Source of the DNA: Muscardinus avellanarius
Taxonomy: Eukaryota > Chordata > Mammalia > Rodentia > Gliridae
NCBI GenBank assembly: GCA_963383645.1
Contig: OY726565.1
Span: 42,078,944-42,142,943, forward strand
Direction of reading: 5' to 3'
Length of the DNA stretch: 64,000 nt
Below the pieces are notes generated by a model. The model saw only the letters and a list, made by a program, of their open reading frames with translations. It did not search any database and was not told where the DNA came from. Positions 6,072 to 59,395 of this stretch are shown piece after piece (within the stretch, counting starts at the first letter, position 1; every line of letters begins with the position of its first letter). The translations under genes were made by a program, and so were the position numbers.

Positions 6072-6405
6072 CCCTTTTGGTACTAAGAATTGAACTTGGG
6101 GCTATTCTACCACTAGGCTACACCCCCAGTCCCTTTTTTTTTTTTTTTTTTTGCGGTACTGGGGATGGAATGCAAGAACATTCTACCTCTGAGCTACACC
6201 CCCAGCCCTATTTTTTATTCTTTATTTTGAAACAGGGTCTCACTGAGATGCACCCCCAGACCTTTTTATATTTTATTTTGAAACAGGGTCTTCCTAAATT
6301 GCCGAGGTTACTCTAAGTTGATGAGTCTAGCCTTGAACCTTTGAGCCTCCTCTCTTGGCTTCCCATATACTGGGATTACAGGTGTGCACCAACATGCCTG
6401 GCTAG
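6072..6405 (-). mobile_element. Two SINEs, one nested
   Basis: ID-half sequence at 6,079-6,135 is interrupted by a second reverse copy from about 6,152. The B1 half ends GCACCAACATGCCTGGCTA. Confidence 0.75.
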
Positions 6406-44160: not shown

Positions 44161-44502
44161 ACACTTTTAAATTTTATAAAAATGACATTTCTGGAACTAA
44201 ATTTTACCAGCTTTCATTGTCTTTGTCTATCTCTTAGAGCAAGGCCTTAAAGAGTAAAATCACAGATCTTTCAGAGAATTCCATGGGAGAGTGGGTAAAG
44301 AATGGATAGTCATTTAACATTTTTCCTTCTATAAATCAGAGAAAAGAGATGTGATTTTCCTGTCCTGGAAGAAACATTTCTCCCTCGTTTCTTTTAAGAA
44401 AATCTGCTTATCCATAAAAATTTGGTTAATCAGATTTGTCTGCTCTGTGGCTACTTTTACCTTATGCTATTTTCTTATTTTCTTTTTTTTTTTTTTTTAA
44501 AG

Positions 44503-44557
44503 GGCTGTTTTGTATTTAAACCAAACTTCAAGAAGAGAAAGATCTCTGTACCAATAG
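44503..44557 (+). CDS. ORC3: ORC3 coding exon 2
   Basis: It encodes GCFVFKPNFKKRKISVPI plus one base, matching human ORC3 residues 9-26 except Ser to Phe and Leu to Val changes. The KKRK cluster could act in nuclear import, but that is inference. The acceptor follows a very long T-tract (TTTAAAG at 44,502) and the donor is ATAG followed by GTAAGG. Length is 55 nt, leaving one base. Confidence 0.95.
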
Positions 44558-45246
44558 GTAAGGTGTCAAATTTGATAATTTTCCCCCCATGTCTTATACT
44601 TTAAGAACTAATGCTTTCCCCCTAAAATTTAGTAATCTTTTCTAAACCTGTTTGCCATGTTAATGTAAAGGTTATGTTCAAAGGCATTGGGATAAATGTC
44701 TACCCTGGGGATGTAATTTAAAAGAGAATGTCAATATAGCTTCAAAAGGCAAGTTGGAAAGTAAATTTATTTTGATGATTTCTCTGCCTACAACTTTAGA
44801 AATGAAAAGAAAATCATATTTTACTAGAAAAACACTTTGATCCTTGACCAAATAATCAAGACAATTTTGAATGCTAAGTAGCAACCCAGATGTCTAAAAG
44901 TGGTGAAAATATTATATAGAAAATAAAATGATATTTAATAACACATGAAAAAACTACAAAAGAAAATGACTACAAATTTGTATATATTTGCTAGTGAAAA
45001 CTATATAGATATTATTCCTGCTTAGGGAAAACTTGAACATGCTTAAAAATTTGGTATGGTCTTCCATTTTGTGAATTAATTTGGTAGGACAGAAGAAAAA
45101 TAATTGTGTGTGGAGCATATAGTACTAGGCTTAGTAACTGTGTGTGTTAAATAGAATGTCACAAGTTCTAATTTGGGGAAAAGTGGTGTGTACACCAATA
45201 CATGTTGGGGGGAAAAAGCCCAAGGTCTCTGGATCTCTCTCTCTCT
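44558..45246. other. ORC3 intron 2 start, unique sequence
   Basis: AT-rich; nothing recognised. Confidence 0.45.
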
Positions 45247-45461
45247 TTTTTTTTTGCGGTATCGGGATGGAACCCAGGAACATTCTACCTCCAAGCTACA
45301 CCCCCAACCCTATTTTTTATTCTTTATTTCGAAACAGGGTCTCACTGAGTTGCAAAGGGCCTCACTAAGTAGTAACTGAGGCTATCCTTGAACCCCAATC
45401 CATCTCAGCCTCCCAAATGCTGGGATTACAACCCTGTGCCACCACCCCTGCCTCTGGATCT
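45240..45461 (-). mobile_element. B1-dID SINE
   Basis: CT-run and T-run head, GCGGTATCGGGATGGAACCC. Confidence 0.85.
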
Positions 45462-45990
45462 CTTAATAGTAATTCTATCAAGTTATGGAAACAAAGTTAT
45501 AGAATCACCTGAACTAGAACTAATGGAATTTGAAGTATGGTCCCAACCCTAACTAGCTCTGCCTTGGCCCTGCGTTTAGCCTTTCCCTAATCTCCTCGTC
45601 TATAAAATCAGTTTTTTCCTGTTCTCATTTTATACTTATAAAAGCAATTAAAAAGTGGGACTGTGTGAGATAGTAACAAATACCTTGTGCTCTTGTGGGC
45701 TGCACCTACCCTGGAAGGAAGGGAAAAGCTGAGAAGGAGCAGCTGAGGACATCTGCTCTTATATCTGCCACGACTTCCAAGTGGCCTACATTCGCTGCCT
45801 GTTACTCCTTACATCCTTTCACCAGTTTGAATTTTCTGTTCTCTCTTATGCACAGGGTGTCCTGGATTATTCTTCTCATTCCTTATTCCAAATAAAACAA
45901 ACTTACTAAATTATTAGACGAATGGGTTTTAATCACACAAAGATAAACATAGTCATTTTATACATTTTTATTTAATTTAATCTTATTTTA
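45462..45990. other. ORC3 intron 2, possible LTR scrap
   Basis: CCAAATAAAACAAACTTA near 45,888 could be a polyadenylation signal region; otherwise unassigned. Confidence 0.3.
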
Positions 45991-46578
45991 TTTTTTTGGC
46001 AGAACTGGGAATCGAACCCAGTGTCATTCTACCTCAGCTACACTCCCAGCCCTGTTTTCTATTCTTCATTTTGAAACAGGGTCTCACTGAATTGCAAAGA
46101 GCCTCACTAAGTATTAGCTGAGGCTGTCCACGAACCGCTACCCTCTTGTCTTCAGCCTCCCAAATGCTGGGGTTACAAGAGTGCACCACCACCCCGGCTC
46201 TATTCTTTATTTTGAAGCAGAGTTTCACTAGCTTGTGGAGGGCCTCACTAAATAGCTGAGACTGATTGCAAACCTGCAATCTTCCTATCTCAGCCTCCCA
46301 AGTACGGGGATTACAAGCATGTGCCACCACACCTGGCTTAGATAGTCATTATTTTTTATTTTTATTTTTTTTTGTGAAACTGGGGGTTGAACCCAGGAGC
46401 ATTTTACCTCTGTGCCACACCTCCAGCCCTGTTTTGTTTTTTCTTTATTCTGAAACAGGGTCTCACTAAGTTGCAGAATGCCTCACTAGGTTGCTGAGGC
46501 TGGCCACAAACCTGTGATCCTCCTGTCTCAGGCCACCAAATGCTGGGATTACAAGTGTTCACCACCATGCCCAGCTCA
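45991..46578 (-). mobile_element. Three consecutive reverse SINEs
   Basis: Copies at about 45,991-46,198, 46,199-46,338 (B1 half only) and 46,350-46,578, head to tail. Confidence 0.82.
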
Positions 46579-46639
46579 TAGTCATTATTAAGGGAATGGA
46601 TTTTAACTATTCATTCAGACATTCCTGTGAGTAAATAGA

Positions 46640-47130
46640 GGAAAGATATTAATTTGTTTAAAAAAACAGATTAAAAAAATTATCAGTGGTTTTTCTGGGG
46701 CAAGGTAGGAAAAATTGATTGCAAAAGGGCAAGAAGAGAGCCAGGCATGGTGGGCACACTTGTAATCCCAGCATTTGGGAGGCTTAGACAGGAGGATCAT
46801 GGTTCGAGGACAGCCTTAGTTATTTAGTGAGGACCTTTGCAACTGAGTGAGACCTTGTATCAATATAAAATATAAAAAATAGGGCTGAGGATATAGCTCG
46901 GAGGTAGAATTCCTCTGGGTTCCATCCCCAGTACTGCAAAATAAAATTAAAAAAAAAAAAAAAGAGAAAAGGGCAAGAGGGTGGAAATGGAGTGATGGAA
47001 ATATTTTTTATCTTGGTCTCTAATTTTAGGGGATGGTTATGTGTGTACTTGTGTCAGAACATACCACACTGTTAAATGGATGTAATTTATTATTTGTAAA
47101 TGATACCTCAAGACAATTAAATTATTAAAA
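46640..47130 (+). mobile_element. L1M-type 3'UTR relic, interrupted
   Basis: TCAGTGGTTTTTCTGGGGCA lies before and GATGGAAATATTTTTTATCT ... AAATGATACCTCAAGACAAT after a SINE at 46,738-46,962. Confidence 0.75.
46738..46962 (+). mobile_element. B1-dID SINE in an L1M relic
   Basis: The flank repeat AAAAGGGCAAGA/G on both sides shows insertion into the older L1. Confidence 0.88.
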
Positions 47131-47247
47131 GTAAAGCGTCTGTCTTCACTCTTTACATTTGTCTCTTGATCTACTGTGGTTAGTGATTAGATTAAGACCT
47201 GACTTCTTCAAACAAATCACAATGTTACTGTCACTCATCAAGTATTT

Positions 47248-47610
47248 ATTGCAGTGGTTCTCAGTTGTAGCTCTACATTACAGTCACTTAGGGGAATTCT
47301 TTAAAAAGTATTTTATCTTGATATAAATGTAGATTCACATATAGTTGTAAGAAATATTGTGGAGTTCTCCTGAACCCTTCACCTGGTTATCCTTAGTGGT
47401 AATGTCTTGCATAACTGTAGTACAGTTTCAGAACCAGGAAGCTGACATTGATACAGTTCACTAATCTTTTTCAGGTTTCAGTTTGGGGAGTTTTTTAAAA
47501 ATAGTGCCAAGTCCTATCCCAGACAAACTGAATCAGAAGCTCTGGGAGTGGGACCACGATGTTAGAATTTTTCAAAAGCTTCTCATAGGCCTATTGAATG
47601 TTTTCACTCA
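47248..47610 (+). mobile_element. MER5A-type hAT relic, interrupted
   Basis: CAGTGGTTCTCAGTTGTAG start and ACTGAATCAGAAGCTCTGGG / CTTCTCATAGG end blocks match MER5-like elements. About 170 bp of foreign, L1-like sequence (about 47,310-47,480) sits inside. Confidence 0.65.
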
Positions 47611-48249
47611 ATTCAAAACTGTGAAGATTAATTCCAGTGGAAAAATTATGTGGAGTTAAGCATACCCATGTACTTGTTTTGAATACCACTGTTTAAGGAA
47701 ATAAATAAATTGAATCCAGAGAATAAGACTTTTCTAAACCATCACATGATATGATAATCCTTCATTCTAAGACTAACTAGATAAGAGACCTGTGCTCATG
47801 GAAAATATAATGAAATAATGGTCTAATGGAGGGTAATGGGGGAGAGTAGGATTTATAATAGGAACTGAGTTTGTCTTTAATAGAGGAATAAGCAATGGCT
47901 TAGAGCTTTCTACTCTTGTAGATTTGATCCCAAAGAAACTTGATGTCTTTTCAATTCCTTGCCCTCCTCCCCTTAAAAAAAAAAACCAAAAAACTAAAGC
48001 AATAGTGGTGGACTTGGAAATAGAGCACAAAGAATAACTGTTTTATAAATTATTTTTAAGTAATTGACTTATGAGAAAATTTAATGTTGGAGATGGTTAA
48101 ACTTACTAGAAATAGTTCAGGGAAAATGTAAGACTTTTTCCCCAGGACTGACGAGGAAAATAAAAAATGCAGTGACATCTGGTATCAGCAATATAGTTAC
48201 AGAACATTGCTAGCATATTTGGAGCATTGATTTGTGCTGGATTGTATAA
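47611..48249. other. ORC3 intron 2, unique sequence
   Basis: Nothing recognised. Confidence 0.45.
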
Positions 48250-48373
48250 ACACTTTTTTTTTTTTCTTTGTGGTACCAAGAATTAAGCAGTGGCTGGTCT
48301 TGAACCAGCGGAGTCTCCTGTCTCAGTCTCCCTAGCACTGGGATTATAGGCATGGACTAACACATCTGGCATG
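48250..48373 (-). mobile_element. SINE, middle deleted
   Basis: GTGGTACCAAGAATTAAGCA runs directly into GGCTGGTCTTGAACC. Confidence 0.75.
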
Positions 48374-48567
48374 TTCTAAACATGAATACAAATGTATTCA
48401 TTTGTGTAATTACCTCAGCAAAATTAAAGGAATGTATATATGAGGATACATAGATGGAGAAAACTTTCTGACTCTTATAATGCTGTAAGTGGTGGAGCTG
48501 GGATTTAAACCCTGTGGGTCTGATTTCATAGTCACTGATCTAACCATTACTTAATAGCACCTCTTAT

Positions 48568-48937
48568 TTTTATTTATTTATTTTTTTATTAATTTATTTT
48601 TTTTATTGGTGCACTGTATTCATACATCATAATGGGATAAAAAAAAAAAAACTTTTGTAGACATACATGCACACATTGCCCAATTAGCCCCTACCCGATC
48701 CCCACCCCGTTCCCTCCCCATCCCTTCTTCCCATGCTTGGCTTCGTGGTTGACATCTAGTATTATAGCAATTTATCCAAAATTAACAATGATAATCTCAC
48801 ATAACAGTTTCATTTGTCTGATACCAAGCTTTTGATGACTTAAAGATAACATTTCAATATTTCTTTTTACTTTCTTTCTTACCAGAGAATATTTTTTTAA
48901 GTTGAAACTATCATATATTTATATATTTATTTTTCAG
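48568..48937 (-). mobile_element. 3'UTR of half-L1-like copy 1
   Basis: On the minus strand it carries a G-rich purine tract (48,690-48,735), a hallmark of mammalian L1 3'UTRs. It then has TACAGTGCACCAATAAAAAA, with an AATAAA signal, and ends in an A/T-rich tail. On the plus strand it offers a good-looking splice acceptor, TTTCTTTCTTACCAG, ending at 48,885. Confidence 0.7.
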
Positions 48938-49628
48938 AAAAAATCTATCCTAATATGGAATATGGACTCTAGGTACCCAAAACAATTTCGAAAAAGAACA
49001 AAGCTAGAAGATACATATTTTCTGATTTCAAACCATATAAAGCTACAATAATTGAAACAGTGTAGTACTATTCTAAAGGCAGATATATAAACCATTGGAG
49101 TTAAATAAAGCGTAGAGATAACATTCTTCCATATATTGTCAAGTTATTTTTGACAAGGTTTCCACGAACATTTGGTGGAGGAAATAATAATCTTTTAACT
49201 AAATGTTGTTGAAAAATAATAATTACATGAAAAAGAATAAAATTGGACCCTTACCTAATCCCATATACAAATATTAACTCAAAATAGATAAAAGACCTAA
49301 ATATAAATCTTAAGACTATAAACTTTTAGAAGAAAACCTGGGTCATAAAACCTCACAACATTGAAATTGGCAGTGATTTCTTGGATATGATTTCAATGGC
49401 ACAGGCAACAGAAGGGTAAACAAACTCCCTAAAAATTAAAAACATATCGTATATCCAAAGACAATGTAAACAGAGTTAAAAGTTACTGATAGAATGGGAT
49501 AAAATGTTTCCAAATGCTATATCTGAAGGTATATTAATATTCCAACTAGAAATCCTAAAAAGTAGCAACAATAAAAGCAAACAATATAATTTACAAATAG
49601 GTAAAAGACTAACATAAATAATGAATCT
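48938..49628 (+). mobile_element. Captured antisense L1 ORF2 fragment in copy 1
   Basis: On the plus strand this reads as the 3' half of an old L1 ORF2. Decayed frames contain the pattern DFKPYKAT, a Lys-Asn-rich lead-in, TTTTTGACAAGG followed by the AACAT..GG stretch, and AGGCAACAG. It is opposite in orientation to ORF1 around it. The equivalent segment of copy 2 has the same extent, so it was present before the two copies separated. Confidence 0.75.
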
Positions 49629-49746
49629 CCACAGATAACCAATCTTAGTTGTCTGCTGCATGGGAAATCTTGTTTCTCTGGTTCTGGTATGTGTTACCTA
49701 TTTCTTCTTTGTAGTTAATCTCCTTGAGTATTTTCTCTAGCGCTGG

Positions 49747-50562
49747 TTATGAAGACATAAATTCCTTCAGTTTCTGTTTGTCATGGAAGCTTCTTATTTC
49801 CCCATCTAATTTGATAGAAAGTTTTGCTGGGTAGGAAATTTTTGGCTGGAAGTTGTTTTCTTTCAGAGTTTGGAATATGTTACTCCAAGCCCTTCTGGCT
49901 CTCATGACTTGGTTTGGGAAGTCTGGAGTGATTCTAATGGGTTTGCCTCTGAATGTCACTTGGCCCTTTGTTTTTGTTGCCTTTAAGATTCTCTGCTTGG
50001 CTTCCACATTGGTCATTTTGACAATTATGTGGCGTGGGGATCCTCTTCTCTGATCCTGTCTAAAGGGGGTTCTATAAGTTTCCTGGACCTGTGTATCAAC
50101 CTCTTGCTCTATGTTTGGAAAATTTTCTGCTATTACTTCCTTGAAGAGATTGTTGATCCCTTTGGTTTCACCTTCTTTTCCCTCCTCTATTCCAATTATT
50201 CTTAGGTTAGCTCTCTTAAAATGGGCCCATATTTCTTCAATGTCAGATTCCTGCTGTTGGATTTTTGTTTCTATTTTAGAAACTATGCGTTCATTTTTGG
50301 ATTGCTCATCTTCTAAGAGTGAGATTCTATTCTCCATGTGGTCTAATCGGTTGTTTTTGCTTTGAATTGAGGCCTTTACTTCATTAATTGCATCCTTTAT
50401 CTCTTTTTGGCTCTCTCTGAATTCTTTTCGAAACATCTCTATTATTTCTGCAGTTATTTTCCTGATTTGATCTTCTAGAAATCTCTGAATTTCTGTTTTA
50501 TCGGGTTCTGATGTTGTGAGGTTGTGGGCATTCATTGCTCCATTGTTATTTCTCTTTTCCAT
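49747..50562 (-). pseudogene. L1-type ORF1, copy 1, stopped early
   Basis: ORF1p of L1 elements is a trimeric RNA-binding chaperone that coats its own transcript. From the first ATG (50,562) this frame runs 271 codons. It shows a coiled-coil-like N-terminal half, the RRM entry RANLRIIGIEEG, the block RRGSPRHIIVKMT, and the C-terminal block NFQPKISYPAKL. It stops at 49,747 where copy 2 has Lys: one A/T difference makes TAA. The frame beyond remains readable to 49,645. A longer reading to 50,607 uses GTG and is not preferred. Confidence 0.85.
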
Positions 50563-51534
50563 GATTTCGGAAGTTTGTGTCTTCTCTGGGTTCTTCCCTT
50601 GGTTCACTGCGACTTCACTTAAGGTGCTCTGGATCTCGAGTCTGTGGTATCTCAGTCCCCACTACTCCTTTACTAGGTTGTATCGAAGAGTCTCAGACCC
50701 AGGGAGTCAATTGAGGCTGCTTTAGACCATGGGGGGTGCCAGGTTGGGCATTCTCCTATGGTGTGATGTCTCTGTCACCGCCACTCCCCCACTGGGTCAA
50801 GGTCCTGGGAGTGCAGTACTGGGATTTCTCCTCTAGGGGCTGCAGTTTGACTCACTGTTGTTGAGTGCGTCGATCGAGCTGTAGTGGACTCAAAGAATTC
50901 GCTGCTGCTGCTGCCGGTGGCAATATGGCGTCGCTGCCATGCCCTCGGCCGTGAGGCTGGCATATTTCTTCTCTGGTTTTGAGCTCCGCTCTTAGGCCCT
51001 GCAGTGTGTGCTAAGCCCAGCCACTGGGAGCTTTATATGCTCCCTGTGCCGAGAAATCTGCCGAATTCCTCCCGGCTGATCCGCAGCGGCCCACCTCAGC
51101 TCGCTGCCCGCCGCTCCTCTCTGGAGCCTGGTGGACTGTTGAGAGCGTTGGTCTGGAGCCGTCCAGTGAGCTCTCCACTGCTGCCAGCAGTAAGGCACTG
51201 CTGCTGCGTCCTCGTGCGTGAGGCCGGCGTATCTCCTCTGTGGCTCTGAGCTCCGTTTTGAGTTCCCCTCCTCTCTGGGGCCTGGTGCTGACTGGAGAGA
51301 TGGCGCCCGCTGCTCCGCGCCGCGGCTTCAGCCACAACACTGTGATCTGGTTTCTTTCTGGTATCTCGTTTTTTCAGCTCTCTTTTTCTCTGTCCCTTGT
51401 AATTACATTTTTTGTTTCTCTGCTGATGGTATTTTCTGACTATGAAAGGCGCTGAATTTGTAGTAATAGAGATTGGTTGTTAGCGGGGCTCATAAGCCCT
51501 GCTTTTCTCCGTCACCATCTTCCTGGAAGTCCAC
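50563..51534 (-). promoter_or_regulatory. 5'UTR/internal promoter region of half-L1-like copy 1
   Basis: About 970 bp of GC-rich sequence before ORF1. Two related blocks lie about 266 bp apart, around 50,880-51,000 and 51,160-51,265. Each reads CTGCTG..., then GTGAGGC(T/C)GGC, then a TCTCTGG/GAGCTCCG run (plus-strand view). This resembles the repeated promoter monomers of some rodent L1s. The first bases contain GAAGATGG, similar to the YY1 site at the start of human L1. Promoter activity is inferred, not shown. Confidence 0.55.
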
Positions 51535-51616
51535 CACCTCTTATAATAGAAGGCACATATTTGCTTGGAACTTTTTATATTTAATTTAAGCTAGAATATA
51601 TTAAGATTTGTTTACA

Positions 51617-51795
51617 GGCCAGGTGCAGTGACACGTTTCTGTAATTTCAATATTTGGAAGGCTGAGACAGGAGGAGTGCAGATTTGAGACCAGTGCACAG
51701 TAACTTAGTAAGATTCTGTTTCAAAAGACAGGGAGTGGAGTACAGCTCAGAGGTACAACAACACTGGGTTCAATTCCCAATTACAGAAAAAAACC
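51617..51795 (+). mobile_element. B1-dID SINE, old
   Basis: GGCCAGGTGCAGTGACACGT start, 70 bp beyond the half-L1-like copy 1. Confidence 0.8.
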
Positions 51796-52370
51796 CAAAA
51801 GATCTGTTTACAGTTTTTAATATTCATAAGCCTAATGTGTACAATTGTATAATTTGAGCTTTACTTCTGAATTTTGTTAGATTTTTTTTCTTTGTGCTAA
51901 TCTTAAGACCAACAGATTAATATTATAATAAAATGAAAATCTTCAAGGACTTAACCCTCATTATAAGACAGATGGAGCAAGAATGAGGAAAATATACCCG
52001 GTTTTTAGCCCTTGCCTTCACTGGCTTCGATTCTTGAAACAGATTGTCTGAAGAAGTAGGAAGATGCTCTGGTTTTGCCTACCATCTGTTCCCTGACTTG
52101 AAAACACTTGGGCATGTCCCTAAGAGAAGATGGTAACTCTCCCTCTCCTAAGTGTTCTGTGGATGTCTGTGCATCAATAAACAACTGGGCAGAAATGGCT
52201 CTGGCACTGTAGGAGAGGTTCACATCAAAGCAAAGCACTGTGAGTGGGAGCCAAGGCTGGAGGAAACCTGACCACAGGGAGAGCTTACATTTTTTTAGCT
52301 CCTTTCAGTGCATATTTATTTTTTGACCACCTGATTTAAAAAGATCCAAGAGAAAGCATTCTATATATTT
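51796..52370. other. ORC3 intron 2, unassigned
   Basis: A GC-balanced part at 52,005-52,280 with ATCAATAAAC near 52,173 may be an LTR relic; no family recognised. Confidence 0.3.
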
Positions 52371-52378
52371 TATTTATT

Positions 52379-52574
52379 TATTTTGGGTGGGGGGGGTACT
52401 AGGGTTCCTGGAAACCCTTCTACTTCCAGGCTATACTCCCAGACCTATTCTATACTTTTTTATTTTTTTGGAAACAGGGCCTCCTAAGCCAGTGTGGCTT
52501 CGAACCTGAGCGATCCTCCTGTCTCTGCCTCCCATGCGTGCCGATTACAAGCATGTACCACCACGCCGGGCAAA
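52379..52574 (-). mobile_element. B1-dID SINE, young-type
   Basis: GGGTTCCTGGAAACCC mark. AAGAGAAAGCATTCTA occurs on both sides (52,348 and about 52,573). Confidence 0.88.
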
Positions 52575-52693
52575 GAGAAAGCATTCTAACAGATTAAAAT
52601 GCCCTGCAGCTGTCTTGAATTTCTGAGGGTATTTTTTTCCCCTTATGCATTTTAAAATAGCATTATTTGGCACATTAAAAAAAAAGTCACATC

Positions 52694-52880
52694 TTGCCAG
52701 TGTAGTGGCTCATGCCTGTAATCCCAATATTTGAGAGGTTGAGACAGGAGGATTGCAGGTTTAAGGCCAGCCGCAGCAACTTAACGAGACTGTTTTAAAA
52801 ATAAAAAGGGCTTAGAGTGTAGCTCAGAGGTAGAATATGGGTTCAATTGCCAGTACCATACACACATAAAAAAAAAAATT
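52694..52880 (+). mobile_element. SINE
   Basis: GCCAGTGTAGTGGCTCATGC start; ID half GCTTAGAGTGTAGCTCAGAG. Confidence 0.8.
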
Positions 52881-52999
52881 CACGTCTTGATTTGCTACTT
52901 AAAATTTTACCGTGATTCTGTCCATTATCAATACAAATGATTATTTTTGTTCTGTTTAAGGCTACTTTGTTATTCCGTTTTTTCTCTTAGTAGTATTGT

Positions 53000-53437
53000 A
53001 TTTATTTATTTATTTATTTTTTTGCATTACTGGGAATGGGACCCAGGGACATTGTACCTCCGAGATACACCCCCAGCCCTATTTTTTAAGTCTATTTATT
53101 TATTTATTTATTTATTTGGTACTGGGGTTCCTGGAAACCCTTCTACCTCTTGCCTACACACCCAGACACCTATTTTTTATATTTTTATTTGGAAACAGGG
53201 TCTCTTAAGCTTGCGATGCTGGCTTCGAACTTGCACGATCCTCCTGTCTCCACCTCCCAAGTGCGGGGATTACAAGCGAGCTCCACCATGCCCAGCTAGT
53301 TTTTTTCTTTTTGAAACAGGGTCTCACTGAGTTGTGAAGGGCTCACAAGTAGCTGAGACTGTCCACAAACTGTGATCCTCCATTCTCTGCTTCCCGAATG
53401 CTGTGATTACAGGCCTGCGCCACCACGCCTGGCCGTA
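53000..53437 (-). mobile_element. Nested SINE pair
   Basis: The outer reverse copy (53,020-53,090 and about 53,300-53,437) is split by a young-type reverse copy whose tail is (TTTA)n at 53,093-53,116. Confidence 0.82.
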
Positions 53438-53474
53438 TTTACTTTTCTGTTTGCATTTTAAAACTATATATCAG

Positions 53475-53673
53475 CCAGGTGTGGTGGCGCACGTTTGTAA
53501 TCCCCGCGCTTGTGAGGCTGAGACAGGAGGATCAAAGCCAGCCTCAGCTACTTAGTGAGGCTCTCAGCAATGTAGTGAGACCCTTTCTCCAAATAAAATA
53601 TAAAAGGTCTGGGAGTATAGCCCAGAGGTAGAAAGCCTCTGGGTTCCACCCCCAGTACCACCAAAAAAAGAAA
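53475..53673 (+). mobile_element. B1-dID SINE, intermediate subfamily
   Basis: GCCAGGTGTGGTGGCGCACG start; GGTCTGGGAGTATAGCCCAG in the ID half. Confidence 0.87.
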
Positions 53674-54149
53674 CCCCCAAAAAACTGTATTTCATTATGA
53701 GATGACTTCATTGTATTCTAAGATGTTTGATAAAATTAAGAATTAATACTTGCTAAAAACTCAGAGTCAACTAGAATTAGAAGGAAAATTCTTTAACACA
53801 AAAAAGAATTTCTATTTCAGACTCTCAACATTTAAACTTGATGATAGAATACTAGCAGTAAAAAATTTAATGCCATGAAGACTCTAGCCTTTGCAATAAA
53901 ATATCTAGCTTTAAACAATAATATATATGAAAGACTATAGAAAATTATAAGGATGGTGTAATACTTGATTAAAGGAGATCTGTGGTTTTTGTATGTGAAT
54001 TTTTAAAATTACTTTAAAATGTTATTTTTAACATTTTAAACGCAATCTTTATGTTTTATTTTATTTAGCTAAAATTTAACTGGTGTAATTATTTTTGAGA
54101 AGTAACAAAGTTACTACAAAATTAATTTGATAGGATGGCCTGTGTTTTG

Positions 54150-54350
54150 GAAAAAATACATTCTTTGGTGGCAGTGGAATAAAAGACCTGTATCTAGTTA
54201 ATATTAAAATACACTAACATACAGAGCTACAATAATTTAAAAATTCAGGACTGGTATGGGAATAAAATTGGATTCAGTATAACAATGGATAAAGTCCAAA
54301 AGTAGTTTGAAGTATATGTAAATGTGTAGACTAAAAGGGCATCCCAAGTC
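54150..54350 (+). mobile_element. Old L1 ORF2 relic
   Basis: CAGAGCTACAATAATTTAAA, CAGGACTGGTATGGGAATAA and ATGGATAAAGTCCAAAAG echo the ORF2 3' half. A further faint continuation to 54,930 is possible. Confidence 0.5.
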
Positions 54351-55109
54351 ATTAAGAAAAAGAATGAATGATTATTCAGTAAATAAATGTTTTTCAAGCT
54401 GAAGGTCATAACCATATGTGAGTTATGAAATAATTTAACAGAAAAAATATTTGCTATTATATGATAAGAATTATTATGTAGGACTTTTGTTTGTGTTTCT
54501 GTTATGTGTATGTGTGTTAGATTATGATAAAATGTATTCTTTAATGAGGATCATGGCTTAAAAAGCTTGAAAACCATTGTAATAGAAGGTATTTTGACAA
54601 ATAGCTAATTATTTAGAGAAAACATTGAAAAAAGATATAAAAAATACCACATGAAAAACTGGAGTACACTATATCCGTGGAACCAAAAAAATAAGAATAG
54701 TAGGGAAAAAATCATTAATGGATAAGAATTTAAAGCATATGTATAAAGAAAAAATATATGACGCCATAGCATAAGAGCAAATAATGAAAACACCAATATT
54801 AAATATATATACCTCAAGCCAAAAACTATTAAATAAAATAAAATTTGAAAGTAAAGATAAAAATACAACTTAAAAATTAAATATATTTAAATTGAAAGAT
54901 ACAGTTAATGTGGAAAAATGAGATACATAAAACCTAAATACAAAGTATATGAAGTATTATTTCTCTTTTTCCTCACCCCCTCTCTGTATATATATTTGAT
55001 TCATAGAAAAATATTTAGCTCCCATCATTTACTCTGTGGCTTTGCATGCAGTGTTTCTAACTTTACTGTATAAAAAAAGAAACTGACTTCTTTCTTTCTT
55101 TGTCTTTAG

Positions 55110-55207
55110 AGGACTATTTTAGTAAAGGGAAGAATGAGCCTGAGGACAGTAAGCTTCGATTTGAAACTTACCGCTTGATATGGCAACAGATGAAATATGA
55201 AACTGAG
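55110..55207 (+). CDS. ORC3: ORC3 coding exon 3
   Basis: It encodes [20 protein letters not shown] then [13 protein letters not shown], a clear ORC3 match. The acceptor is TGTCTTTAG and the donor is GAG followed by GTGAAA. Length is 98 nt, entering with one base carried over and ending in phase 0. This segment starts the helical N-terminal region that precedes the degenerate AAA+ fold of ORC3. The exon sits between two copies of the same antisense half-L1-like element (48,568-51,534 and 55,588-58,352). Confidence 0.95.
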
Positions 55208-55587
55208 GTGAAAACTTTTTTTAACATTTCTCTAGTACTGTAAATCCTTTTTTGTTGCTTTATTTGTCTCCACCAATGTACAACAATTATTGATGAAATT
55301 TAGGATACACTGGTCAAGCATCATCTGTAAAAATCCTAAAAAAGAAGCTCTAGTATCCCAAATAATGCACATAGCTTTAGGAACGGCAAAATGATAGATG
55401 TTAACGCAAGGTGCTTTCAGATGGTGGCACTCTTAAGTCATTCATTCAGTTAACAAGGTATACAAGTATGAGATTAAGCTATTTCTAAACTCTTTTACTC
55501 CTTGTCTTCACATCCAGTTATTATGTTCTCATATTTCAGCTGTGAAATATTTCTCAGTATAACAAGTTGGTAGCTCTAGGTCTAATG

Positions 55588-55937
55588 TCTTTTTTTTTTT
55601 TTTTAATTGGTGCACTGTATTCATACATCATAGTAGGATACATACTTTTGTAGACATACATGCACACTTTTCCCAGTCAGCCCCCACCCAATCCCCAACC
55701 CATTCTCTCCCTATCCCTCCCTCCCATGCTTGGCTTAGTAGTTGACATCTAGTATTGTGGCAATTTATCTAAAATTAAAAATGATAATCTCACATAACAG
55801 TTTCATTTGTCTGATACCAAGCTTTTGATGACTTAAAGATAACATTTCAATATTTCTTTTTTCTTTCTTTCTTACCAGAGAATATTTTTTTTTCTATTTT
55901 TTAGGTGAAACTATCATATATTTATATATTTATTTTT
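55588..55937 (-). mobile_element. 3'UTR of half-L1-like copy 2
   Basis: It repeats the G-rich purine tract (55,680-55,730) and the TGCACCAATT end seen in copy 1. The A-tail is a run of about 16 T on the plus strand. The plus-strand acceptor TTTCTTTCTTACCAG is also kept, ending at 55,878, only about 670 bp downstream of ORC3 exon 3. Confidence 0.7.
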
Positions 55938-56625
55938 CAGAAAAAAATCTATCCTAATATGGAATATGGACTCTAGGTACCCAAAACGATCTTGAAAAAG
56001 AACAAAGCTAGAAGATATATATTTTCTGATTTCAAACCATATAAAGCTACAATAATTGAAACAGTGTAGTACTATTCTAAAGGCAGATATATAAACCATT
56101 GGAGTTAAATAAAAGCCTAGAGCTAAATTCTTCCATATATTGTCAAGTTATTTTTGACAAGGTTTCCACGAACATTTGGTGGTGGAAATATTAATCTTTT
56201 AACTAAATATTGTTAAAAAATAATAATTACATGGAAAAGAATACAATTGGACCCTTACCTAATCCCATATACAAATATTAACTCAAAATAGATAAAAGAC
56301 CTAAATATAAATCTTAAGACTATAAACTTTTAGGAGAAAATCTGGGTCATCAAACCTCACAACATTAAAATTGGCAGTGATTTCTTGGTTATGATTTCAA
56401 TTACACAGGCAACAGAGGAGTATACAAACTCCCTAAAAAAAAAATTGTATATCCAAAGACAATGTAAACAGAGTTAACAGTTACTAATAGAATGGGATAA
56501 AATATTTCCAAATGCTATATCTGAAGGTATATTAATATTCCAACTAGAAATCCTAGAAATTAACAACAATAAAGGCAAACAATACCATTTAGAGATAGGT
56601 AAAAGACTGACATATATAATGAATC
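55938..56625 (+). mobile_element. Captured antisense L1 ORF2 fragment in copy 2
   Basis: Counterpart of 48,938-49,628, in the same position and orientation relative to ORF1. Scattered substitutions and small indels separate them (for example GGTGGTGG against GGTGGAGG). Frames are broken throughout, as expected for an old relic carried as passenger sequence. Confidence 0.75.
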
Positions 56626-56642
56626 TCCACAGATAACCAATC

Positions 56643-57560
56643 TTAGTTGTCTGCTGCATGGGAAATCTTGTTTCTCTGGTTCTGGTATGTGTTACCTATT
56701 TCTTCTTTGTAGTTAATCTCTTTGAGTATTTTCTCTAGTGCTGGTTTTGAAGACATAAATTCCTTCAGTTTCTGTTTGTCATGGAAGCTTCTTATTTCTC
56801 CATCTAATTTGATAGAAAGTTTTGCTGGGTAGGAAATTTTTGGCTGGAAGTTGTTTTCTTTCAGAGTTTGGAATATGTTACTCCAAGCCCTTCTGGCTCT
56901 CATGACTTGGTTTGGGAAGTCTGGAGTGATTCTAATTGGTTTGCCTCTGAATGTCACTTGGCCCTTTGCTTTTGTTGCCTTTAAGATTCTCTGCTTGGCT
57001 TCCACATTGGTCATTTTGACAATTATGTGGCGTGGGGATCCTCTTCTCCGATCCTGTCTAAAGGGAGTTCTATAAGTTTCCTGGACCTGTGTATCAACCT
57101 CTTGCTCTATGTCTGGAAAATTTTCTGCTATTACTTCCTTGAAGAGATTGTAGATCCCTTTGGTTTCACTTTCTTTTCCCTCCTCTATTCCAATTATTCT
57201 TAGGTTAGCTCTCTTAAAATGGGCCCATATTTCTTCAATGTCAGATTCCTGCTCTCGGATATTTTTTTCTAGATTAGAAACTATACGTTCATTTTTGGAA
57301 TGATCATCTTCTAAGAGCGAGATTCTGTTCTCCATGTGTTCTAATCGGTTGTTTGTGCTTTGAATTGAGGCCTTTACTTCATTAATTGCATCCTTTATCT
57401 CTTTTTGGCTCTCTCTGAGTTCTTTTCGAAACATCTCTATTATTTCTGCAGTTATTTTCCTGATTTGATATTCTAGAAATCTCTGATTTTCAGTTTTATC
57501 GGGTTCTGATGTTGTGGGGTTATGGGCATTCATTACTCCAGTGTTATTCCTCTTTCCCAT
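56643..57560 (-). CDS. L1-type ORF1, copy 2, uninterrupted
   Basis: An open frame of 305 codons from the ATG at 57,560 to TAA at 56,643; human ORF1p is 338 residues. Counting from the upstream GTG at 57,605, the coiled-coil-like region is roughly residues 40-130, the RRM 134-228 and the C-terminal domain 229-310. Recognisable blocks are ANLRIIGIEEG, RRGSPRHIIVKMT, GKPIRITPDF and NFQPKISYPAKL. It encodes an RNA-binding chaperone, not an enzyme, so any mobility would depend on ORF2p supplied by another L1. Whether it is expressed is unknown. Confidence 0.85.
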   Translation of the reverse strand: MGKRNNTGVMNAHNPTTSEPDKTENQRFLEYQIRKITAEIIEMFRKELRESQKEIKDAINEVKASIQSTNNRLEHMENRISLLEDDHSKNERIVSNLEKNIREQESDIEEIWAHFKRANLRIIGIEEGKESETKGIYNLFKEVIAENFPDIEQEVDTQVQETYRTPFRQDRRRGSPRHIIVKMTNVEAKQRILKATKAKGQVTFRGKPIRITPDFPNQVMRARRAWSNIFQTLKENNFQPKISYPAKLSIKLDGEIRSFHDKQKLKEFMSSKPALEKILKEINYKEEIGNTYQNQRNKISHAADN

Positions 57561-58352
57561 GATTTCAGAAGTTTGTGCCTTCTCTGGGTTCTTCCCTTGG
57601 GTCACTATGACTTCACTTAAGGTGCTCTGGATCTCTAGTCTGTAGTATCTCAGACCCCACTACTCCTTTACTGGGTTGTATCACAGAGTCTCCGACCCAG
57701 GGAGTCGATAGAGGCTGCTTTAAACTATGGGGGGTGCCAGGTTGCACGTTCTCCTTTGGTGTGATATCTCTGCCACCGCCACTCCCTCACTGGGTCAAGT
57801 CCCAGGAAGTACAGTACTGGGATTTCTCCTCTGTGGCCCGCAATTTGACTCACTGTTCTTGAGTTCGCAGATGTAGCTGTACTGGCCTCGTTGAATTCGC
57901 TGCTGCTGCCTCCGGTGGCAATATGGTGCTGCTGCTACGCCCTCAGCTCTGAGGCTGGCTTATTTCTTCTTGGTTTTGAATTCCACTCTGAGTTCTTGCA
58001 GCATGTGCTGAGCTCAGCCACTGGGAGCTTTAGATGTTCCCTGCGCTGAAAAATCCCGCCTGGCTGTTCCGTAGCGGCTCACCTCGGCTTGCTGTAGCCG
58101 TCCGGTGAATTCGCCGCTGCCGCCAGCAGTATGGCGCTGCTGCCGCATCCTTGGGCGTGAGGCCGGTGTATCTCCTCTGTGGCTGTGAGCTCTCTTCTCA
58201 GTCCGCTTTCTCTCTCGAGCCTGGTGATTTTTTTGTTTCTCTGGTGATGGTGTTTTCTGGCTATGAAAGGCGCTGATTTTGTGGTAATGGAGATTGGTTG
58301 TTAGCGAGGCTGTTAATCCCCGCTTTTCTTGGTCACCATCTTCCCGGAAGTC
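57561..58352 (-). promoter_or_regulatory. 5'UTR/internal promoter region of half-L1-like copy 2
   Basis: About 790 bp, shorter than in copy 1. It retains the two related blocks, near 57,895-57,990 and 58,095-58,200, each with a CTGCTGC run, a GAGGC(T/C)GG core and TATTTCTTCT/TATCTCCTCT. The outer end holds ACTTCCGG (ETS-like) and GAAGATGG (YY1-like). Confidence 0.5.
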
Positions 58353-58354
58353 CT

Positions 58355-58497
58355 TATTTTTTATTTTTAAACAGGGTTTTTCTCACTTGCTAAGAGTCTT
58401 AGTATGTTGCTGAGGCTCTCCTAGGACCTGTGATCCTCCTATCTCAGCCTCCTAAGTACTTGGATTACAGGTCTACCTCACCATGCCCTGCCTCAAA
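58355..58497 (-). mobile_element. SINE, truncated against half-L1-like copy 2
   Basis: Starts at the B1-ID linker (TATTTTTAAACAGGG); the ID half is missing where the L1-like 5' end begins. Confidence 0.8.
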
Positions 58498-58729
58498 ATG
58501 CAATTTAAACTTCAAACATCTTGCCCTTTCTTTGAGTCTCATATGTTGTTTGTGGCTCATTGTATGTAATTTTCCCACTTAAATCTATCTATTGCCAGCT
58601 TATTTCATAGATTAAAATTATTTAATGTTCAGAGGGAAAAGAAAAATTGAAATATTCTTACTCTAGGAAGGATACATCAGATTACTACAAATAATGATAA
58701 TTTATAAAGTTTTTTTTATTTTTTTGTAG

Positions 58730-58874
58730 CGGGTACAGGAAGAACTAAATAAAAACCTGTTTGACAGTCTAATTGAATTTCTGCAAAAGTCTCATTCTGG
58801 ATTCCAAAAGAATTCAAGGGACTGGGGCTATCAAATAAAACAGAGAGAAATTCCAACGGCTGCTCTTGTTCTTG
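58730..58874 (+). CDS. ORC3: ORC3 coding exon 4
   Basis: It encodes [20 protein letters not shown], then [15 protein letters not shown] and [13 protein letters not shown] plus one base. Against human the changes are few, such as Asn to Ser in LFDSLIE and a Trp in SRDWGYQ. The acceptor is TTTTTGTAG and the donor is CTTG followed by GTATGTATG, giving 145 nt. IPTAALVLG leads toward the nucleotide-binding-like AAA+ core, which in ORC3 does not hydrolyse ATP. The next exon, expected to begin VNVTDHDL, is not seen before the right edge. Confidence 0.95.
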
Positions 58875-59395
58875 GTATGTATGTATCTGTATCTTTTGAT
58901 GCATGTATATACTTCTTGAATATTTTTTTTATTGTTGATAATAGTGTGGAATAACTTATTCTGATAAAGCTCTTTTGTTTCTTTTACTTATAGAATTAAA
59001 CTAACTCTAGTTTTCTTTGCAGACTTTTCAAAACCAATAAAACTTTCTGATCATGTAACTGTAAACTTTAAAAAATTGATCCAGCTAATACTTTATTCAA
59101 GTTTTTGTCAGAAGGGGAATGATATTTGTTTTATTCTTTCTTCCTTATATATATTAAGTGAGTATTTGAGGGCTTGGTAATAAACCACCAGTGTCTTAGT
59201 GGATTTGATTTTTGTACCTTTTTTAAAATCATATTTTCAGTAATCTGTATTATTAATTTTACTTCCTTGTATTTATTTTTTTGATTTTAGGTTGTTTTAT
59301 TATATTAATATTAATTGCCAAAGAAGGATTTATATGAATTGTAAATAAATTGCTTTCAGATTGCAGGTTATAAATTTTATGTATGTGTGTGTGTG
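58875..59395. other. ORC3 intron 4 start, unique sequence
   Basis: AT-rich; the next ORC3 exon is not present here or further right. Confidence 0.5.

Follow-up and report, generated by a model that had tools for sequence, protein, structure and literature searches.

A likely half-L1 (HAL1) family carrying a fixed, inverted ORF2 passenger in the genome of Muscardinus avellanarius

How did two L1-like elements in the genome of the rodent Muscardinus avellanarius come to carry a piece of L1 open reading frame 2 (ORF2) backwards at the same internal position? The question is raised by a stretch of 64,000 nucleotides (GCA_963383645.1, contig OY726565.1, positions 42,078,944 to 42,142,943 of the forward strand; hereafter the window), in which two minus-strand copies (copy 1, ~48,600–51,532 plus tail; copy 2, ~55,605–58,353 plus tail) have in common the order 5' untranslated region (5'UTR), ORF1, reversed L1 ORF2, A-tract, L1-type 3'UTR and A-rich tail. 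This order and orientation had been proposed in an initial annotation made from the window alone, and we confirmed them with shifts of a few bases. Based on the searches described here, the copies very probably belong to a HAL1 (half-L1) family with a fixed inverted ORF2 passenger. An L1 master would have kept its 5'UTR and its ORF1 through the stop codon, while its ORF2 would have given way to a reversed ORF2 piece, behind which lie an L1-type 3'UTR containing AATAAA and an A tail; RNA made from the 5'UTR would yield ORF1p, and L1 ORF2p acting in trans would reverse-transcribe this RNA into new sites.

A BLASTN comparison of the regions 48,400–51,700 and 55,400–58,500 showed the two copies to be identical in 2,421 of 2,707 aligned columns (89%), with an extra 163-column match at the 5' end. 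With approximate segment limits, identity was 84.8% in the 5'UTR, 95.9% in ORF1, 93.2% in the reversed ORF2 piece and 91.3% in the 3'UTR. This similarity stopped at the element ends without aligning into the flanks compared along with them (~150–200 bp per side), and a self-comparison of the whole window added no flank match between the copies; the equivalent junctions with differing flanks that had been described earlier thus held up.

A search of the window's assembly (2.50 Gb) with a 50-mer across the ORF1/reversed-ORF2 junction (junction 1) found it at 6,238 sites (3,152 + 3,086) with at most three mismatches, against 0 + 0 for a reversed-pattern control. In most of the ~100 junction sites listed, the mismatches to the window fall on two or three recurring bases, so this count is probably a lower bound. 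Our first whole-genome search had returned 50 rows from 40 scored places on many contigs, among 18,571 first-look candidates, and 39 other scored places together with the two window copies formed a best-match set (n = 41). Because this sample favours whole copies, we added a junction-picked set chosen by junction 1 alone: ten copies drawn from the 19 sites with three mismatches that were listed for contig C1. In the best-match set, junction 1 was present in 41/41 copies, the second junction (junction 2) in 40/41, and a 5' end within 6 nt in 28/41; nine of the ten junction-picked copies continued over junction 2 through to the 3' end and eight had the 5' end within 6 nt; one of the ten breaks off within the reversed piece (L056) and one lacks the 5' part (L063). 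Three junction sites lie within ~180 kb of each other at C18:47,289,404-47,470,816. A search of bacterial and archaeal genome contigs with the ORF1 protein gave 24 pattern matches, none of which was confirmed, and viral contigs scanned for the exact junction pattern had 0 matches; neither revealed stray copies.

Many of these copies are bounded by target-site duplications (TSDs). Copy 1 is flanked by a perfect 10-bp duplication, ATAAGAGGTG; its left (3') member (48558..48567) reads CACCTCTTAT and matches the right (5') member at 51535..51544. Leaving aside L021, L022, L056 and L063, which are without a 5' or 3' part, 47 of the 51 copies in the two sets could be scored by an exact rule, and 27 of these had a TSD of at least 9 bp, compared to 1/47 with shuffled flanks. 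Approximate scoring gave a score of at least 9 in 27/41 best-match copies (reversed-flank control, 2/41) and in 6/10 junction-picked copies; by this scoring L021, L023, L037, L043 and L050 had no TSD match, and nine others, including window copy 2, had weak ones. A-rich tails are present at the 3' ends of family copies. The first four TSD bases were A in 23, 23, 20 and 18 of the 27 exact duplications and the preceding base was T in 17/27, i.e., T|AAAA-like sites, resembling the known L1 endonuclease preference TT/AAAA as given in a figure legend of PMC13174262; because of these sites, L1 enzymes most likely made the family's copies. With no ORF2 of its own, the element would have to obtain ORF2p in trans, presumably from L1 elements, with which the target-site motif is compatible. 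The mobile family suggested by the initial annotation is therefore supported by the genome-wide junction count and the TSDs: many copies do carry both junctions and, for the most part, a duplication of their own, and the opposite outcome, of two copies only with alignable flanks, is excluded.

The protein encoded by this family is a complete one. In copy 2 the minus-strand ORF (56643..57560), open over 305 residues with its TAA stop near the reversed ORF2 piece, matched the Pfam L1 RBD-like and dsRBD-like domains (E-values of 5.2e-26 and 5.3e-23, respectively) and human L1 ORF1p structures (2yko, 4.7e-60), and the 305-residue family ORF1 thus encodes a complete L1 ORF1 protein. The counterpart in copy 1 (49645..50562, minus strand; 305 codons plus stop) has one premature stop. 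In 17 of the 41 best-match copies all 305 residues, starting with MGKRN, were intact, and at least 300 residues were open in 23/41. Variants found in a single copy had a non-CpG nonsynonymous to synonymous (N:S) ratio of 1.11 of expectation (221:70), as for dead copies, those in 2–3 copies a ratio of 0.72 with 4 stops, and those in at least four copies a ratio of 0.52 (28:19) with no stops; this is a count rather than a formal test, and copies share variants by descent. The lean of shared variants to silent changes argues that source elements kept ORF1, which appears to have been maintained by selection in them. In a midpoint-rooted ORF1 tree the family grouped with P0012, P0001, P0003 and P0020 (100/99) and adjoined squirrel and marmot L1 ORF1s (88/82), a placement consistent with derivation from an L1 lineage.

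What follows ORF1 is not a coding region. All 41 best-match copies, including the 17 with intact ORF1, run from ORF1 straight into the reversed piece, and none has an ORF2 coding region. In copy 2 the plus-strand piece (55904..56633, placed by its human ORF2p match, outer ends by eye) matched residues 856–1051 of human L1 ORF2p (4.4e-20), and a tblastn search with the human ORF2p segment gave matches at 48,985–49,539 (residues 861–1050) and 55,977–56,420; in copy 1 the piece spans 48900..49635 on the plus strand, with an alignment-supported core of ~48,980–49,595 and outer ends set by eye. In a related copy, L010, similarity to two L1 ORF2 copies (L034 and L029) extended over ~610 bp and reached within ~55 nt of the ORF1 stop, although the last part was weak (2e-4); read by eye, the reversed piece is ~740 bp long and begins ~9 nt from the ORF1 stop. 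Identity to the piece was 60.9% over 445 bp for the ORF2 of the old L1 at L034 and 64% over 104 bp for that of L029. In the 51-copy majority sequence, stops interrupt each of the three ORF2-sense frames of the piece, which was therefore already dead when the sampled copies began to spread.

Beyond this piece, a 22-copy alignment places the internal A-tract at 48892..48899 in copy 1 and 55885..55903 in copy 2 (minus strand). The 3'UTR of copy 1 (48600..48891, minus strand), with a terminal AATAAA, was placed through L010, in which that motif was read and the last 199 bp of the 3'UTR share 73% identity with an L1 3' end downstream of ORF2 in L029; further AATAAA motifs lie just before the internal A-tract (L010 positions 2,599 and 2,607). 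The copy 2 counterpart (55605..55884, minus strand) was placed by comparison with copy 1. The elements end in an A-rich tail in copy 1 (48568..48599, minus strand; T-rich on the plus strand, element end CCAATAAAAA) and an A tail read from the sequence in copy 2 (55590..55604, minus strand). Judging from these similarities, each of ORF1, the reversed piece and the 3'UTR goes back to L1s, either one or several. One further copy, L025 (C10:108,497,764-108,501,379), stops short of the 3'UTR, at the internal A-tract, and is bounded by a 14-bp TSD of its own, and so the internal tract can serve as a 3' end. Separately, the ORF2 region of an old L1 contains a ~355-bp insertion (L031:5896-6246) with AGAATACTAC on both sides, as read by eye, in which 179 bp matching the HAL1 reversed piece (94%) are joined to a different L1-type 3'UTR (72%); it has the look of a chimera produced by template switching, or else of a copy from another subfamily.

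We compared the family with known systems as they are described in the literature. The sections of PMC5753468 on HAL1 (citing Smit 1999 and Bao and Jurka 2010, the latter work also cited in PMC5322556) describe these elements as L1-derived, with ORF1 only, a poly(A) tail and TSDs, and as using L1 enzymes in trans, and state that they originated independently several times. Like these, our family encodes an L1 ORF1 protein, has no ORF2 coding capacity, has an A tail and TSDs, and is L1-derived. Because it shares these four testable features and works like HAL1, we file it as HAL1; unlike HAL1 as given in those descriptions, it has a reversed ORF2 piece fixed between ORF1 and the 3'UTR. Among the literature matches listed, judged by title and the start of the abstract, none described a HAL1 with an inverted ORF2, and the passenger appears to be new for HAL1, with the caveat that it is set apart here by literature descriptions rather than by Repbase or Dfam entries. 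The ORF1-only, HAL1-like element with a fixed inverted L1 piece that the initial annotation had recognized is thus borne out by junction 1 in 41/41 copies, junction 2 in 40/41 and the intact ORF1s. To our knowledge, SVA and LAVA of hominoid primates encode no ORF1, whereas the only protein of the present family is a conserved L1 ORF1p. SVA and LAVA (PMC7353768) and the Muscardinus family are alike in being composite, non-autonomous and L1-mobilised, the last presumably so for the Muscardinus family.

Several observations weigh against a HAL1 family propagated in this way. No exact-rule TSD was found in 20 of the 47 copies, and copy 2, which lies in A-rich sequence, has no clear one. The helper L1 with an intact ORF2 is deduced, and we saw no young partner L1: a search with the marmot L1 ORF1 P0006 yielded, from 59,208 first-look candidates, 119 scored matches of 44–53% identity, and the four of these 119 that were placed (L064, L065 and L066 by opening them, the fourth via a neighbouring junction match) proved to be HAL1 of the same family. 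The autonomous L1 may have decayed here, or the first-look candidates may have been crowded by HAL1. In addition, L025 shows that a copy can do without the present 3'UTR, which is thus not strictly needed and hints at a layered history, and inspection of the ORF1/ORF2 junction by eye revealed neither the duplication that a captured insertion would leave nor a clear L1 cleavage motif.

This last point bears on how the inversion arose. Twin priming places a reversed ORF2 segment ahead of a sense L1 3'UTR and A tail, and the family resembles twin-primed L1 copies in this respect; it differs from them in having a sense 5'UTR and ORF1 ahead of the segment, and in that the arrangement has been inherited by thousands of copies. 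As our first choice, held tentatively, we suggest that a twin-primed (5'-inverted) L1 insertion (the mechanism is outlined in PMC13174262), or an equivalent template-switch product, was captured just after the ORF1 of a source L1, to which it would then have given a new 3' end and poly(A) signal. Because neither the insertion's duplication nor a clear cleavage motif can be read there, the case for twin priming is weak. A DNA-level inversion inside one L1, with two flanking deletions, would instead have flipped the C-terminal half of the parent's own ORF2. We regard this as a possible, somewhat less likely origin: all identifiable pieces are L1 pieces in L1 order with the middle alone flipped, no relic duplication is readable by eye at the junctions, and an old L1 matches the family at similar depths in ORF1 (64.6% and 71.7%) and ORF2 (60.9%), but two deletions and an inversion are needed together, and the A-tract that separates the ORF2 piece from the 3'UTR, with L025 ending there, suggests a 3' end that was once independent. 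The ~61% identity of the old L1's ORF2 to the reversed piece fits both an origin from another, older L1, as the initial annotation had it, and one from the parent's own ORF2.

Could the reversed piece instead be functional, for instance by antisense pairing with L1 RNA or as an alternative poly(A) signal? We consider this very improbable. The element would indeed be transcribed antisense to ORF2, and the AATAAA motifs just before the internal A-tract, where L025 ends with its 14-bp TSD, might act as such a signal; however, only 1/41 best-match copies ended at the internal tract, and the piece has just 61% and 64% identity with the L1 ORF2 copies at L034 and L029, respectively. Its density of shared variants (in at least four copies), 6.3 per 100 non-CpG sites, is also about as elsewhere in the element (ORF1 5.2, 3'UTR 7.7, 5'UTR 9.9), and we saw no sign of a role beyond being carried.

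That a single accidental rearrangement was duplicated locally or segmentally, as the position of the two window copies 7 kb apart might suggest, is refuted as an account of the family by the differing flanks beyond the element ends, the junction at 6,238 places and the exact TSDs in 27/47 copies, and its probability is negligible. Equally negligible is the chance that ordinary autonomous L1s were independently disrupted at the same place by later insertions or inversions, or that old insertions coincided, since although 5'-inverted L1 copies are a known class (PMC2912911 and, for twin priming, PMC13174262), the same junction occurs in 41/41 best-match copies and at thousands of sites and the decay of the piece is shared in the majority sequence. 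We also rejected an autonomous L1, as no sense ORF2 follows ORF1 in the best-match copies, and a one-off 5'-inverted insertion product, as the inverted segment is internal and at the same position in 41/41 best-match copies rather than 5'-terminal and variable.

The old L1 used in these comparisons (L033/L034, C15:59,140,000-59,157,900) has a P0012-type ORF1 and a same-strand ORF2, interrupted by two family copies in opposite orientations, and reads as one element; at the DNA level its ORF1 matches the family at 64.6% (632 bp) and 71.7% (127 bp). At non-CpG sites of ORF1, reversed piece and 3'UTR taken together, the ten junction-picked family copies diverge from the majority sequence by 2.92% (range 2.1–3.6) and the 41 best-match copies by 2.67%; for the junction-picked set the separate values are 1.90% (ORF1), 3.55% (reversed piece) and 4.11% (3'UTR). 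With an assumed rodent substitution rate of 2–2.5e-9 per site per year, our guess for the age of the family is roughly 12–15 million years.

The 5'UTR of copy 1 (50563..51532, minus strand) was delimited by copy alignment and starts with GGACTTCCAGGAAGATGG, while that of copy 2 (57561..58353, minus strand) is without ~115 bp found in the L010 type, a gap also present in 7/10 junction-picked copies, the region being wholly absent in 1/10. The L010 5'UTR has 56% G+C and contains two related stretches (element positions 265–394 and 532–672), ~270 bp apart and 70% identical, which resemble diverged L1 5'UTR monomers. Both window copies lie antisense in neighbouring introns of a plus-strand gene (window 44,500–58,900; peptides at 44,512, 55,109 and 58,754) that we take to be ORC3.

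Ground squirrels are a cited case of quiescence of long and/or short interspersed elements (the relevant lines of PMC5857283, citing Platt and Ray 2012). It is conceivable, though we think it unlikely, that in Muscardinus an ORF1-only L1 derivative with a scrambled body, expanded to more than 6,000 copies as its autonomous relatives decayed, is the main surviving source of intact L1 ORF1; this parasite of L1 would then have outlived or displaced the L1 that was its host. Loss of ORF2 and the burden of a dead, inverted L1 fragment between ORF1 and the 3'UTR need not stop an L1 derivative from reaching thousands of places, many of its copies being full-length, so that a scrambled element became a successful mobile family in a mammalian genome. 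Its fixed junctions provide a clean marker with which to count and date the family, and a selected ORF1 without a linked ORF2 bears on the role of ORF1p for its own RNA.

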